A stretch of DNA of 53,650 nt from positions 1 through 53,650 of the forward strand of contig WIXG01000459.1 of assembly GCA_009869945.1 (NCBI GenBank). The letters are read 5' to 3'. The DNA is from Mesaphorura yosii. Lineage: Eukaryota; Arthropoda; Collembola; Poduromorpha; Tullbergiidae. This document shows, in pieces, positions 13,785-44,030 of this stretch (positions are counted from its first letter, which is position 1; every line of letters starts with the position of its first letter). The translations under genes and the position numbers were made by a program. A model generated the notes under the pieces. The model did not search any database. It worked only from the letters and a program-made list of their open reading frames with translations, and was not told the origin of the DNA.

Positions 13785-15929
13785 ATGGCAACCTACTACA
13801 TGAATGGAGAGCAGTACCCTTACCCAACCGGGGCATCGAGCGGTGGTTCGGGTGAAGGCTATTCATACGGGTAAGGGCATTTCTGTTTTTTAATCTAACA
13901 ATGACCATACTATGAGCGTATCTTCTGTTAGGTATTGTCCGGAGAGTGATTATTATTATCATCCTGGGCTGAAAACTGAAAAGCCAAAGGCTCCCGTTTC
14001 TCCTCACATCATCAACTGCAATGGCTATGCTATTCAAATAACTCTTGGACAGCACAAGTATGGTGGGCCGCCTGCTGATTGGACAGATCCGTTTCCAGGA
14101 GAAGAATGCGAGGTGACTCTAGCATAGAGCAACAAGAACAACTGATTCATTGAGTCAATAATATGTAACAGTGATCTACGATTTACACAGGTTTATTGCG
14201 GTCGACTCCCACGCACCATGTTGGAAGATGAACTTCTCCCTCTGTTTGAAAAGTATGGCCGTATTTGGGAGATGCGACTCATGATGAACGACTATTCTCA
14301 GAAAAACCGTGGATTTGCGTTTGTGAGATACACTACGGAAGAATCGGCAATGGCTGCCATTTCGCATGTATGTTAATTGTTTTGTCAATGCATAGTATTG
14401 ATTATTCTTGCTTTTATTGCATTTGCTTTAATTTTCTTGCGTACTCCCTGCACAGTTAAATGACAAGCCGATTGAACGTCGACCTCATCACAGATTTAGA
14501 GTTGAAGCTTGTGCAAAGAAAGTTCGTCTGTACATAGCCAATATACCGAAAGCTAAACCAAAAGAAGAGTTGCATGAAGAATTTGCTAGAAAGACCAGTA
14601 CTAACCTAATCTCTGCTTTAAATTTTCTAACCTTAAGAATAATGTTATCGAAAATTCACCGGTGCTATCATTGCAGCGGGTTTGAAAGAGGTCATCATTT
14701 ATGCACCAGCTGATGACAAGGATCAAGTGAAGAAAAATCGTGGCTTCTGCTTCCTGGATTATGATAGCCATTCGAATGCTTTCGCTGCGAAGAAACACTT
14801 GTCCAAAAATGTCAAAAAACTTTGGGGCTGTGAATTGGTTGTCGACTGGGCTGATCCAATCAAGGAACCCGAAGATGAAGTTATGGCGAAAGTAAAAGTT
14901 CTGTATGTACGAAATCTAACGTCACGTGTTACAGAAGACAGGCTTCAAGCCCTGTTCTCAACGTATGGTGTGATTGAGAGGGTCAAGCGTCTGAAGGTAA
15001 GAAGCACTGGCTAAACCTTTGGTGGAATTATCCACATTTTAACACCCTTATTGCAGGATTTCGCGTTCGTCCATTTTGCGAATCGTGCTGATGCTGAGAA
15101 GGCTCTGAAGGAACAGCAAGGAGAAGAATTTTGCGGAACCCATCTTCAGATTGAATGGGGAAAGCCACCGGAGGACAAGCGACAATTGGAAGGAATGCTC
15201 CGAGCCCGAGAACGTCGAATGATGGAAAGATTCTATTTCCCACCGAGCTCCTACTACCCGAAGGCGTACTCGGAAGGTTTCTCTTAAATGTCTTATACTA
15301 AGCTTTTCTTAATTGGTGAAATGCGAATATTTTCTGTGTTTACAGCGTCGGATGCCTGCTACTACGACCCTTCTTTATATTACAATTATTATCAAGACTA
15401 CGATTACACCAACGGAGCACCTTACTACACTTATCTTTATCCTCCCAGTCTGGAGTCATCATATCGTTCGGCAAGTCCGGTCAGTCCGATGTATCATTCA
15501 CACTCGTCTCCACCGTCATCTCCAGAAGTCTATAGACGTGGACCCCGTGCAGAACCCTACCGAAGTGCTGAATTGCGCACACCTGAGATTCAGAATTCAC
15601 CGCGTCGGCCATCGTCCGATTATTCAGATAGAAGTCGCCGCTTTGTGAGGCACCATCATCGAAGTGACCGCGATCGATGTGTAAAGAAATAAAAACGCTA
15701 ATTACAAAACTGTGAAGACAGCTTTGGTTGCTAATCATGTCTATTCTTTTCGTTGTTCCAGTCCCACAAGAGTGGCAAACGACCGAGTGCCAGCGAGGAT
15801 AACTGGAGAAGACATTGCAGTTCATCGCGTCGTCGGGATTACTCGCATGGTGAACCCCAGTCTCCGCCCTACACACCACCACACAGTGCGTCAAATCCTA
15901 ATTCGCCAGTCCATTGGCGCAGACGTTAA
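13785..15929 (+). CDS. SYNCRIP/hnRNP Q-R family RNA-binding protein with three RRMs, lacking the NURR domain
   Basis: Eight exons join in frame to 542 residues: 13785-13870, 13932-14112, 14191-14367, 14456-14597, 14677-14996, 15057-15276, 15346-15680, 15762-15929. RRM1 (residues about 90-165) starts VYCGRLP and has RNP1 NRGFAFVRY. RRM2 (about 170-255) has LYIANIP and NRGFCFLDY. RRM3 (about 270-350) has LYVRNL and DFAFVHF. The linker LGQHKYGGPPADW before RRM1 and WADP before RRM3 are SYNCRIP-family hallmarks. The tail is Tyr-rich, then Ser/Pro/Arg-rich, ending HWRRR. The N-terminal acidic NURR domain of SYNCRIP is missing; only about 30 residues precede the linker. Known members bind mRNA and act in splicing, transport and translation. 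If intron 6 is retained, translation stops at 15287. A minus-strand relative lies tail to tail at 17710-22225. A poly(A) signal AATAAA is at 16049. Confidence 0.9.
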
Positions 15930-17709: not shown

Positions 17710-20700
17710 TTATTTGACGGCATAATTGTTGGATTCATTTGGCTTGTGGGGGCCTTTGTTTCGGGGGACGTTGGTCCGCTGTGTTGGGCCTCCAACCATT
17801 GCCATAGCCGACAAAGGGCGTCCTGCCAGCCGCATTCCAACTCCAGGGTAGTGGCCCACTTGGACCGGCGGCCCCGCGGTACGCGGAGGTCCAGCCGGCC
17901 GCATTGGTCCCATTCCACGAATCCCCCGGATCAGCCCAGCGACCTGGACCGACTCCATTGCCAGCCCGGGCCCAGGATGAATCAGCCCATGGCCACGGCC
18001 AGCCTGAAATCAGCAACGTTCAATTCAATTTCGGCAGAAAAGAAATCTCGCACAACATAAAGTGGATAAAATATGAAGTTGCTCTAAGGAACTCAAAGTG
18101 GATCCAAAAGATCCAAACAAATGCTGCAATCTACTTGTTAGTTGGTTAAGAGCAGATATTTAATCAGCATGCTCAGGTTATGCAGACGAAACAAATGGAT
18201 TAAGCACAAAAGCAAGTCACAAGAAGCAAAATAGGATCAAGCTCCGCCGATAAGTCTTCAATTTCGGGATAAATAATTGAAATAAACTCATTAGAACTGG
18301 AACTCTGACTGTAATTACGAAATGCGAACGAACCGTTTGTCGTGGCTGTGCTTTCGCCTGCGCTAACCCATCACTTATAGAAGGCGAGGAAGCAGTATTG
18401 TGCATAGACGGACAAGAAAATATGGCAGGCGAAGGTGACCCGAAATTATAGTACAAATCGTCAAGACAGTATACGTCAGAATCATAGTAATGGCGTGGGT
18501 CCACAGAATAAGCTCCGCAGTTATAAGAGTCATCGCAGTCTGGACGTGTTGAGTTGAATTTTGAAGGGCCATTTTGAAATGAGTACCAGAGCAGCACGCC
18601 GCAATAAAGAGGTACAATTAAATAAATTATGTAGACAGTAGACAAGAAATGCGATCAAATCGAAGTCAAAATCCCATAATCGACATATTTACCCCAAAAT
18701 TAATTCAAATTACGAACAGAGTAGCACAGCTTTGACTTTGAATGATATATGTTAGTCTACAATACACTACGGTAGAGCCTACTTTCGACGGCGATGATGA
18801 AAAATTCATGGTTAATCAGTTGAGTTAGTGGATGTATCTAAGCATTGTACTTCGTCAACTACTGGTTGGTCGGACTCGTATCAATTTTCAACAAATCTTA
18901 CCGTATTCAGCTCGTCCCACTGGCCCCCGCATGCCACCACGGCCTCCTCCTCTCATTGGCATCGAAGGTATCATCATCCTAACGAATTAACGAAATAGAT
19001 ATACGAGTTAGACATTAGACAGCATTCTTGGCTCTTCCTCTTGCTACGAAAGAGTCGTTGTATCTTACGGTGGACGTTGTGTTATCATCTGCATCATGCG
19101 CCGCTCTCTGGCTCGAAGCATCTCCTCCTTCTTTTTCTTGTCTGAAGGTGGTTTCGCCAAAGAAATTTCGATGCAAGATCCTCCTACATCTGTGCCATTC
19201 AGTGCGTTCATGGCCGCAACAGCAGATTCTCGTTCTTCGAAGTGGACAAATGCGTAGTCCTGTGAAGATAGCACGAAATCGGTTAGAAAGTCAGTTCTAA
19301 AGGCCCACGAATTTAGCGTTAAAGTTTTTGAGTTTGTACCTTAATCTTTTTGACGCGGTCCACACGTCCATGAGCTTCAAATGTTTCCTTTAGTTTTTCT
19401 TCTGCGACGTCTTGAGTTAAATTTCTTACGTAAAGTACTTTAACTTTGGACATTGTATCATCGTCTGGTTCTTCCAGAGGATCGGCCCAATCAACAATTA
19501 TGTCGCAGTTCCAAACTACACAGAGTATACAGATAGTAAATCAAGCAGAAATTTATTAAAGAGTTGTAAATTAAACCGATACGTAATATGACGATGAGGC
19601 TTTAAGAATTAAGCTACACTTCCCATTGCTAAAATTCAAGATTAGAGCAATCTAAACTAACCTTTGACTCTTGACGTACCCAGCCGTCTTTTCGCTAATG
19701 AAGCCGCTTTGTGAGACTCATACTCCAAAAAGCAAAACCCCCGATTCTTTCTTCTGTCATCGGGCGAATTATAGATGATTACTTCGGTTAATCCAGCTGA
19801 AAATTGTGAAATAACGTTAACCACTGACGATTCCTACTTGGAATAGGCAAGAAATTTTGAAAACTTGCTACTATACAAATATGAAAATTCAGGTGGTTCA
19901 AAGCAATTAAAATCACACACTTACGAGCATGCTTTGAAAATTCTTCTAAAAGTTCATCATGATCCTTATTCTTTGGAAACAAAAAAATATATTATTCCTT
20001 GTTTAATAACGGCAGCGAGATTATGGGATGAATTAATGAATCGAAACCTTTGAATGTACTTGTTTCAACAATGTTTGGAATGTTGGACAAGGTAATTAAA
20101 AATTAATTCGGATCTTACCTTTGGAATGTTTCCAACAAACAATCGGTGATTGTTGTAAGAAATCGTCACCTAATAAGACAGAACATAATTATCAAACGAC
20201 GCTGTAGTGAGTTTATCCTTGAATATTATACTAAGTGTCAATAAGTGTTCGCAATTTCTGAGCTTAGAAAATGTACGAACAAGTTTGGGGTAATTGGGGG
20301 GAAATTCATATATTCACAGAATATAGAATTCTGTGAATATATATTCAAAATCATAAAACAAGACGATGTACACTGACGACGAGGACCAGAACTATTAACT
20401 GAACAATAATTAACTAAGTAATATAGGTAATTAATAATTATAGGAATAGATGTGGCAATGTTTTTGATTTCTTTCTGCTTCAATCAACTTACCCCAATTT
20501 TTTTTCCTTTTCTGATCTCGAAATCATTGAACTAAAAACAAAACAAGAGCAATTTTGAGAATCATATTGAACGCCAATGCAAAACCTTTTTTGGTCCGAG
20601 TAAATGTCGTAAAGTGAACAAGATGGGTTCCTCAGGAGGGATGCTAGAACACATGATGAACTTTGGCGTAGCCTTTAACGTGGGTAAAAAAGTTTGCTAA

Positions 20701-22225
20701 CTATTATCTGTAAGAATAGCTTTAGTGAAGGAAGCATTAGCATTAGATCTTTACATGAAACTCTTCGAAACTCTTGGCGTATATCTTCAACAGTTATCCA
20801 CTTTGGAATCCGTCCAATGTAAAGTGTCATTTTAGGCTTGGAAGTGGTTACACCAAGATGAACAGTTTCGGGTCGAGTAGGAAATTGAACACAATCCTTT
20901 AACTGCATTAACAATGCTTTGTTATGTGATGAAACCAATTATAAGTTATCGTTAGCGAGAAAGAATCTACTCCTGCGGGAGACTTGGGTGATAACAGGAC
21001 AAGTGAGACGAGATCCTTGTGAATGCTAGAATGCTGAATGCATTTCTGATTTCTGCGATGATTGCACTTTACCTGTCTAACTGCTTCAATAGCACCGTCT
21101 CGATTAGTAAATGTTACAAACGCGTAGCCTCGATTGAGACCCGTCATTGGATCCATCATGAGTCGCAAATCCCAAATTGGACCACATTTCTCAAATAAAG
21201 GAATCAATTCATCTTCGTACATGTCCTTTGGAATTTTTCCACAAAACACCTATGGTTAAATAAAATATTATAAAATATCAGTGCACAAGAAAGAACCACA
21301 CCACTGTCCGATGTACTTACTTCGCACCCGTTTCCAGGTGGTGGAGCTTCCCAGTTTGGCGGTGGTCCACCGTACTTGCGCTGGCCTGTTGTAACATCTA
21401 ACGAATAGCCAGTTCTGTCAAGAATCGCCTTGATTTTTGCTTCATCGGGTCCCTTTGCCGTGCTGCAGGGAAAACAAGCCATATGGGCCATATTTAGTGA
21501 TCGCGATTCACAACTTGCTGACACGAGATGCGGAAAGTGTGTCTTGGGTACCTCTGAACTGCAGGAGTATTTCCTTGACCTGATCTTGTTTTCTGTCTGT
21601 ACGTTTTCATTACACCGCAAAGATAGGCCGACTTATTGGAAACGTGTTCCAAATTTGAGTCGAGGAATTGTTTCAGCACCGTTAGAGCTCCCTCAACGGG
21701 GAACTCTTTGAGAGCATCTAATGCCCTCTCGTCTAGATCACTATGGGCTAATTTTCCTGCAAACATATGCAAGTAAGGGTTGAAACAACGATGTGCCAAT
21801 GTGTCAGACGTCTCGATATATTTCTCGTTGTAAATTGTGGTCTTACCTGTACTATAGATATCGTCCAATTTGGCAGCGACTTTTTCATCGAGACCGTACT
21901 GAACCAATTGCTTGAAATCAGCTGACCTCTGGCTCGGTGAAATTGGTAGTGGTTGAATTGAAGCATCTGCCTGTTTGTCCTCCGCGTCGACCGCATCTGA
22001 CTCGCCGTTCTTTTTGTCAGATTTGTTCGCCGACGCCGCTGCTCCAGACTCAACTTCCGCAGTGGCCTTTGAAAGATTTTTCTTTTTTGCACCATCAATG
22101 TTGTTGGCATTAACTGAATTTACAGCGGAAGTCCCTGTGTTGTTGTTAAGATTAGCCGATGTGGAGTTCTTCAGTTCATCTCCTCCCCCGAGATGAACTT
22201 CTCCATTGTTTTCAGTACTGGCCAT
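17710..22225 (-). CDS. Syncrip: SYNCRIP/hnRNP Q-R orthologue with NURR domain, three RRMs and a Gly/Arg/Pro-rich tail
   Basis: Thirteen exons give 710 residues: 21847-22225, 21552-21756, 21321-21462, 21073-21249, 20493-20531, 20119-20169, 19925-19970, 19662-19796, 19340-19515, 19069-19259, 18902-18978, 18319-18539, 17710-18003. A variable acidic N-terminus leads into the NURR domain (about 100-190), with [18 protein letters not shown] and [14 protein letters not shown] close to human SYNCRIP. Then come [10 protein letters not shown] and [15 protein letters not shown]1 (243-, [16 protein letters not shown]), RRM2 (about 320-, [16 protein letters not shown]), RRM3 (about 416-, LYVRNL, DYAFVHF) and a tail with [10 protein letters not shown], a Tyr/Asp-rich exon and a Gly/Pro/Arg end. 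Known role: cytoplasmic and nuclear mRNA binding, mRNA transport, splicing. An alternative exon at 20755-20902 can replace exons 5-7. The two C-terminal exons have weaker splice sites (donor GTAATT at 18318). Confidence 0.92.
20308..20342. repeat. Perfect 15-bp inverted repeat with 5-nt loop inside a Syncrip intron
   Basis: ATATATTCACAGAAT at 20308-20322 is exactly complementary to 20328-20342, with loop ATAGA. It sits in the intron between exons 20493-20531 and 20119-20169, the cassette that competes with the alternative exon at 20755-20902. It would fold as a stable hairpin in the pre-mRNA. Confidence 0.8.
20755..20902 (-). CDS. Syncrip: Alternative RRM2 N-half exon of the Syncrip gene
   Basis: A 148-nt exon with acceptor ATGCAG|TTAAAGG and donor TTTCAT|GTAAAG. 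It encodes a second version of the end of RRM1 and the first half of RRM2 ([20 protein letters not shown]). It parallels the normal version spread over 20493-20531, 20119-20169 and 19925-19970 ([10 protein letters not shown] plus [11 protein letters not shown]). Both versions enter in phase 0 and leave in phase 1 (148 and 136 nt, each 1 mod 3), so either fits between exons 4 and 8. Including both shifts the frame. The single-exon layout matches exon 4 (142 nt) of the plus-strand paralog. Expression is inferred from intact frame and splice sites only. Confidence 0.75.

Positions 22226-34571: not shown

Positions 34572-44030
<9,459 letters not shown>

Follow-up and report, generated by a model that had tools for sequence, protein, structure and literature searches.

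A far-diverged exon copy opposite a split conserved block in the Syncrip gene of the springtail Mesaphorura yosii

Does one Syncrip gene of the springtail Mesaphorura yosii hold two versions of the same protein segment, and could both still be in use? The question arises on contig WIXG01000459.1 of assembly GCA_009869945.1, whose positions 1 to 53,650 were analyzed as one stretch of DNA (the window). An earlier note, made from these letters alone, had described a Syncrip gene with two mutually exclusive sets of exons between the constant exons E4 and E6: a single exon, A, and a block of three short exons, B1, B2, and B3. Both sets would encode the end of the first RNA recognition motif (RRM1) and the start of the second (RRM2). 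The best explanation, and in our judgment a fairly probable one, is that the locus represents the springtail form of an exon choice widespread in arthropod Syncrip, with A as a minor regulated isoform and B as the default.

The exon coordinates of the earlier note all hold in the spliced models. On the minus strand, these run from an ATG at 22225 to a stop codon at 17737-17735, with GT-AG boundaries at every coding intron, and give 632 residues with A and 628 with B1+B2+B3. A domain search found the hnRNP Q acidic domain (PF18360, 103.4 bits, residues 111 to 180) followed by three RRM_1 stretches, and the best named relatives of the predicted protein among the matches listed are annotated arthropod hnRNP Q/R proteins, the nearest of them from springtails. 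By both family features, the acidic domain with three RRMs and the named relatives, the gene is identified as Syncrip/hnRNP Q-R, in agreement with the name it had been given.

Exon A (148 nucleotides [nt]) and the B block (39 + 51 + 46 = 136 nt) occupy the same position between E4 and E6, and both are entered in phase 0 and left in phase 1, as had been claimed. A, B1, B2, and B3 can be included in 16 combinations, of which 6 keep the frame (A; B3; A+B2; B1+B3; B2+B3; B1+B2+B3), and the other 10 meet a premature stop. A+B1, A+B1+B2, A+B1+B3, and A with all of B each stop at codon 353, inclusion of neither A nor B stops at codon 304, and A+B3 breaks the frame. It is B3, rather than the B block as such, that sets the phase. 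The claim that using both versions breaks the frame therefore stands for A with all of B, A+B1, and A+B3 and falls for A+B2, which stays open; mutual exclusion in the mRNA would follow from this frame logic, with A+B2 as an open exception.

Relatives were pooled from three protein searches, using residues 300 to 380 of the A isoform (best 120 of 515 matches), residues 296 to 360 of the B isoform (best 120 of 247 matches), and the constant N-terminal part, residues 60 to 303 (best 120 of 2432 matches). The database was clustered at 90% identity, and A-like isoforms could hide behind a representative of the other type. The 279 distinct proteins, which include many isoforms and closely related sequences, were assigned to two types, T1 and T2, by identity to two typed consensus segments of 45 residues each, themselves refined later. 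T1 was found in 127 proteins and T2 in 138, while 14 carried both in one predicted protein. In all 14, T1 comes before T2. These double carriers span one decapod and seven insect orders (Homarus, Iphiclides, Atta, Periplaneta, Dendroctonus, Pieris, Popillia, three Timema species, Ephemera, and Lucilia cuprina with three models) and are probably gene models that fuse two alternative exons and so reveal the genomic order. T1 and T2 also occur in separate proteins of one named gene in Ampulex (KM043_002981; P0059 and P0187) and in separate isoforms, X2 and X5, of one gene in Mycetomoellerius zeteki (P0105 and P0223). T1 is found outside crustaceans and insects as well, in Caerostris (P0002), Centruroides (P0019), Nymphon (P0036), and Strigamia (P0050); the named T2 proteins among the matches listed, which are ranked towards the window, come from crustaceans, springtails, or insects.

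The earlier note knew of no described case of such an exon choice in SYNCRIP. This novelty is not borne out, because T1 and T2 are widespread in arthropods and annotated as products of one gene. As far as the literature consulted shows, the exon pair is an annotated, widespread, and little discussed feature. A literature search covering titles and abstract openings, with subscription papers outside its scope, found no description of T1/T2 exons in Syncrip, and the terms CG17838, Syncrip, hnRNP, and Syp are all absent from the main text of the Kassiopeia paper (PMC3923563). Excerpts of Halstead 2014 report 17 isoforms and an "alternative RRM1" in Drosophila isoform Syp-PC, which may correspond to the T1/T2 choice (PMC4163661), and those of Brooks 2015 report that Syp splicing is altered on depletion of 11 RNA-binding proteins (PMC4617972). 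A 2023 paper, in its excerpted text, gives Syp four promoters, a set of shared exons, and a choice among four C termini, and the term RRM does not occur in it (PMC10730016). Across such excerpts, Syncrip isoforms are sorted by promoter and C terminus, an alternative RRM is named once, and the roles given for fly Syncrip are neuronal timing, synapse growth, and spermatocyte translation. The wide occurrence of T1 and T2 suggests that a switch affecting two of the three Syncrip RRMs has been conserved.

What is new in M. yosii is that A has diverged so far and that B is divided among three exons. An unrooted tree was built from 22 of 61 distinct T1 segments, 16 of 39 T2 segments, a human composite, A, B, and the equivalent exon of a neighboring paralogue. 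B falls within the T2 clade (support 99/98), is 93% identical to the nearest T2 row, and is by these measures an ordinary T2 version. Its two internal introns most likely arose after the copies had separated, because A and the equivalent exon of the paralogue are both unsplit.

Exon A is the odd copy of the pair, which the earlier note had missed, and, by the measures below, has changed more than in any relative examined. Against hidden Markov models (HMMs) built from the 61 T1 segments and from the 39 T2 segments (after removal of a T2 hybrid that stemmed from a fused gene model), A scores 29.1 bits for T1 and 15.8 bits for T2. All 2000 shuffles of A fall short of both scores; 1536 (T1) and 1517 (T2) of them give any score, the best T1 value being 8.4 bits, and chance is excluded as the source of the homology. 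The mean pairwise score of A is 49.6 to T1 versus 39.0 to T2. This homology supports the claim of two versions of one segment spanning the RRM1 end and the RRM2 start. Identity has fallen to 15 of 45 residues for the T1 consensus and 13 of 45 for the T2 consensus, versus at least 26 of 45 to the T1 consensus in all 61 T1 segments, and A is four whole codons longer than T1. From its upstream position and its HMM and pairwise scores, we tentatively take A to be the T1 copy, diverged beyond its relatives and presumably descended from T1. Searches of the genome with a protein query and a DNA query (20532-21072) found no second copy of exon A. The window offers an experiment of nature: one side of the switch has evolved much further than its counterpart.

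From the sequences, phases, homology, order, and divergence, we infer how the transcript might be spliced and expressed. Depending on the exon chosen, a single pre-mRNA would give one or the other of two proteins, with separate versions of the final RRM1 strand, the linker, and, in RRM2, the RNP2 strand and first helix. B, the conserved T2 copy, is probably the default, which suits the contrast in acceptor pyrimidines: among 12 acceptors, A has the fewest (7/16) and B1 the most (14/16). The donor of A, with 6 of 9 consensus matches, is unremarkable beside the 5 to 7 of the other coding introns. A, far diverged yet with frame, splice phases, and RRM pattern kept, would most likely serve as a minor regulated isoform with altered RRM2 RNA contacts. 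Exclusion would be achieved at least partly by frame: including A along with all of B, or leaving both out, would lead to an early stop with expected decay. A steric block would be unnecessary, intron A-B1 measuring 223 nt where the shortest introns of the gene have 71 to 90 nt. Frame and decay would clear most double or empty products.

The predicted change in the RNA-contact strand is seen in the RNP2 motif, LFVGNI in B and LYIGRI in A, with the aromatic second residue retained. Because constant exon E6 supplies RNP1 of RRM2, and the choice affects RNP2, the first helix, the linker, and the closing strand of RRM1, the fold of the A-version RRM2 is probably kept and its RNA contacts altered. 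In the Pfam RRM_1 match, the RRM2 half from A joined to the constant half scores 33.5 bits and that from B scores 43.2 bits; by itself the constant half reaches 22.1 bits, and with a hand-scrambled first half 21.1 bits. RNA pairing as an exclusion device is no more than a weak lead. The two arms of a 13-nt perfect inverted repeat lie in intron A-B1 (20652-20664) and in exon B3 (19949-19961); the pairing has a duplex energy of -17.0 kcal/mol and a pair probability of up to 0.37 and could in principle mask B3. Pairing of at least 13 nt also occurs in 6 of 300 dinucleotide shuffles, making it marginally beyond chance, and in 4 of 83 window tiles, the tiles over this pair being counted among the 83.

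The main rival holds that A is a decaying T1 relic out of use and B the sole working version in this species, which we regard as unlikely. The extreme divergence of A and the poorest acceptor tract would suit a relic, and so would its codon use, which is matched by 40% of open stretches taken as non-coding (from a null region that may include unrecognized coding sequence); codon usage was dropped as support for a coding exon. The nearest relatives point the same way. In the N-terminal search, the eight closest proteins (the springtails Folsomia P0126, Orchesella P0129, and Allacma P0133, and five others), at 73.8 to 87.4% identity over 421 to 627 aligned residues, all carry T2 and none an A-like segment, although the 90% clustering may mask isoforms. 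A relic, however, need not have kept an open frame, GT-AG sites, the right phases, a length change from T1 in whole codons, and the RRM pattern. The 49-codon open frame is in itself weak evidence, since an open run of this length occurs at about 10% of the positions treated as non-coding. When neutral decay was simulated in 4000 runs from the T1 consensus down to 15 identities or fewer, just 478 runs were stop-free at the divergence of A, and none of these reached its T1 HMM score (best 28.9 versus 29.1 bits). By other measures, stop-free runs did match A: 35 of 478 by the full 45-residue BLOSUM score, 8 by the core 24-residue BLOSUM score, and 97 by core identity. Neutral decay separates A clearly on one score only, and narrowly. 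With its frame open, splice sites intact, and RRM pattern kept, A may still be a translated exon, and most likely it is a regulated minor exon, with the relic as the main rival.

Other origins and uses of A were weighed against the same evidence. RNA-binding proteins are known to regulate themselves through poison exons, and A might act mainly in this way, its joint inclusion with B leading to the stop at codon 353 and lowering the Syncrip level. All four patterns that contain A+B1 end at this codon, and intron A-B1, at 223 nt, is spliceable by length because the shortest introns of the gene measure only 71 to 90 nt; yet inclusion of A by itself leaves the frame fully open and yields an RRM-like protein, needless for a pure poison exon, and we consider this role improbable. 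Exon transfer from the paralogue, or from another RRM gene, instead of descent from T1 strikes us as highly improbable. The paralogue, which we take to be of the A1CF/RBM46/RBM47-like family, lies a few kilobases away on the plus strand (13785-15276 and on), tail-to-tail with the Syncrip gene. It shares the RRM1/RRM2 exon layout of Syncrip, including an RRM1 exon of 177 nt like E4, and has, if its donor is read as GTACTA, an equivalent exon with the same phases as A. Over the 24 core residues, this exon and A agree at 10 positions (T1 segments agree with A at 9.6 on average and at 13 at best), and a grouping of A with it is not rejected (approximately unbiased test, p-AU 0.446). Over the whole segment, A scores lower to the paralogue (43) than to the T1 consensus (48), and A sits at the T1 position. 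More tentatively, and in our estimate rather unlikely, the T1-position half of RRM2 could have been rebuilt under selection into a new RNA-binding half-domain of restricted stage or tissue, while T2 became the standard version and was cut into three exons. If this were true, an old splice switch would have turned into a source of new RNA specificity.

Several observations weigh against a regulated exon choice in M. yosii. Besides the codon use, the neutral runs that match A, and the T2-only set of closest proteins, A has no settled place in the tree: its end branch measures 5.0 changes per column, and its grouping with T2 is not rejected (p-AU 0.55). Compared as open frames, the exon of the paralogue fits the T1 model better than A does (32.6 versus 28.1 bits). 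A change in RRM2 may also matter less than one in RRM1 or RRM3, because excerpted data for human Syncrip include only one high-confidence RNA-bound peptide in RRM2 (PMC5827114).

The features of the locus are collected in Table 1. Intron B1-B2 contains a 15-bp perfect hairpin with a 5-nt loop (20308-20342); a transposon origin was rejected, as a 131-base query around the hairpin found no second copy in the genome. Elsewhere in the window, an open frame at 41214-41795 on the minus strand encodes a Runt domain (PF00853, 148.4 bits) and probably belongs, as an exon, to a gene for a runt-family transcription factor.

Table 1. Exons of the Syncrip gene and the equivalent exon of the neighboring paralogue (positions in the window)
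Feature	Positions	Strand	Basis
Coding exon E1, with ATG at 22225	21847..22225	-	Spliced model
Constant exon E2; acidic domain encoded jointly with E1	21552..21756	-	PF18360 match
Constant exon E3	21321..21462	-	Spliced model
Constant exon E4, 177 nt, bulk of RRM1, phase 0 end	21073..21249	-	Spliced model
Alternative exon A, 148 nt, RRM1 end and first strand and helix of RRM2; putative diverged copy at T1 position	20755..20902	-	Model, homology, simulation
Alternative exon B1, 39 nt, start of T2 version	20493..20531	-	Model, HMM
Alternative exon B2, 51 nt, RNP2 strand LFVGNIPK	20119..20169	-	Model, HMM
Alternative exon B3, 46 nt, first RRM2 helix, phase-setting	19925..19970	-	Model, inclusion patterns
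Constant exon E6, RNP1 of RRM2	19662..19796	-	Spliced model
Constant exon E7	19340..19515	-	Spliced model
Constant exon E8	19069..19259	-	Spliced model
Constant exon E9	18902..18978	-	Spliced model
Final coding exon E10, stop codon 17737-17735	17735..18003	-	Spliced model
Equivalent exon of paralogue, unsplit, 142 nt, phase 0 in, phase 1 out	14456..14597	+	Donor GTACTA guessed from frame

Arthropod Syncrip/hnRNP R-Q (Drosophila species, ants, moths, Homarus) shares with the M. yosii locus the family, the protein site, and the T1-then-T2 order of the 14 double carriers. The locus differs in its T1-position exon, with 4 extra residues and just 15/45 identities to the T1 consensus, and in a T2 version spread over three exons, the other species being known from proteins alone. 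Drosophila Syncrip isoform K (PDB 6es4) has a T1 segment at the RRM1 end (LDNHEIKPGKCLKINISVP) that is conserved, unlike A. Human hnRNP Q/R (PDB 6kor and 9ejy) has a homologous segment, seen in a single version in proteins whose isoforms were not searched for. Their composite matches the T1 consensus at 32/45 residues and the T2 consensus at 25/45 but stands beside T2 in the unrooted tree. The mutually exclusive homologous exons of Dscam and others likewise place homologous alternatives at one site, frame-incompatible if both are used fully. Here, instead of one exon each of similar length, a 148-nt exon faces a three-exon block of 136 nt, and exclusivity would come from the frame, with RNA-structure control weakly hinted; in homology, position, and phases, A and B resemble such exons.

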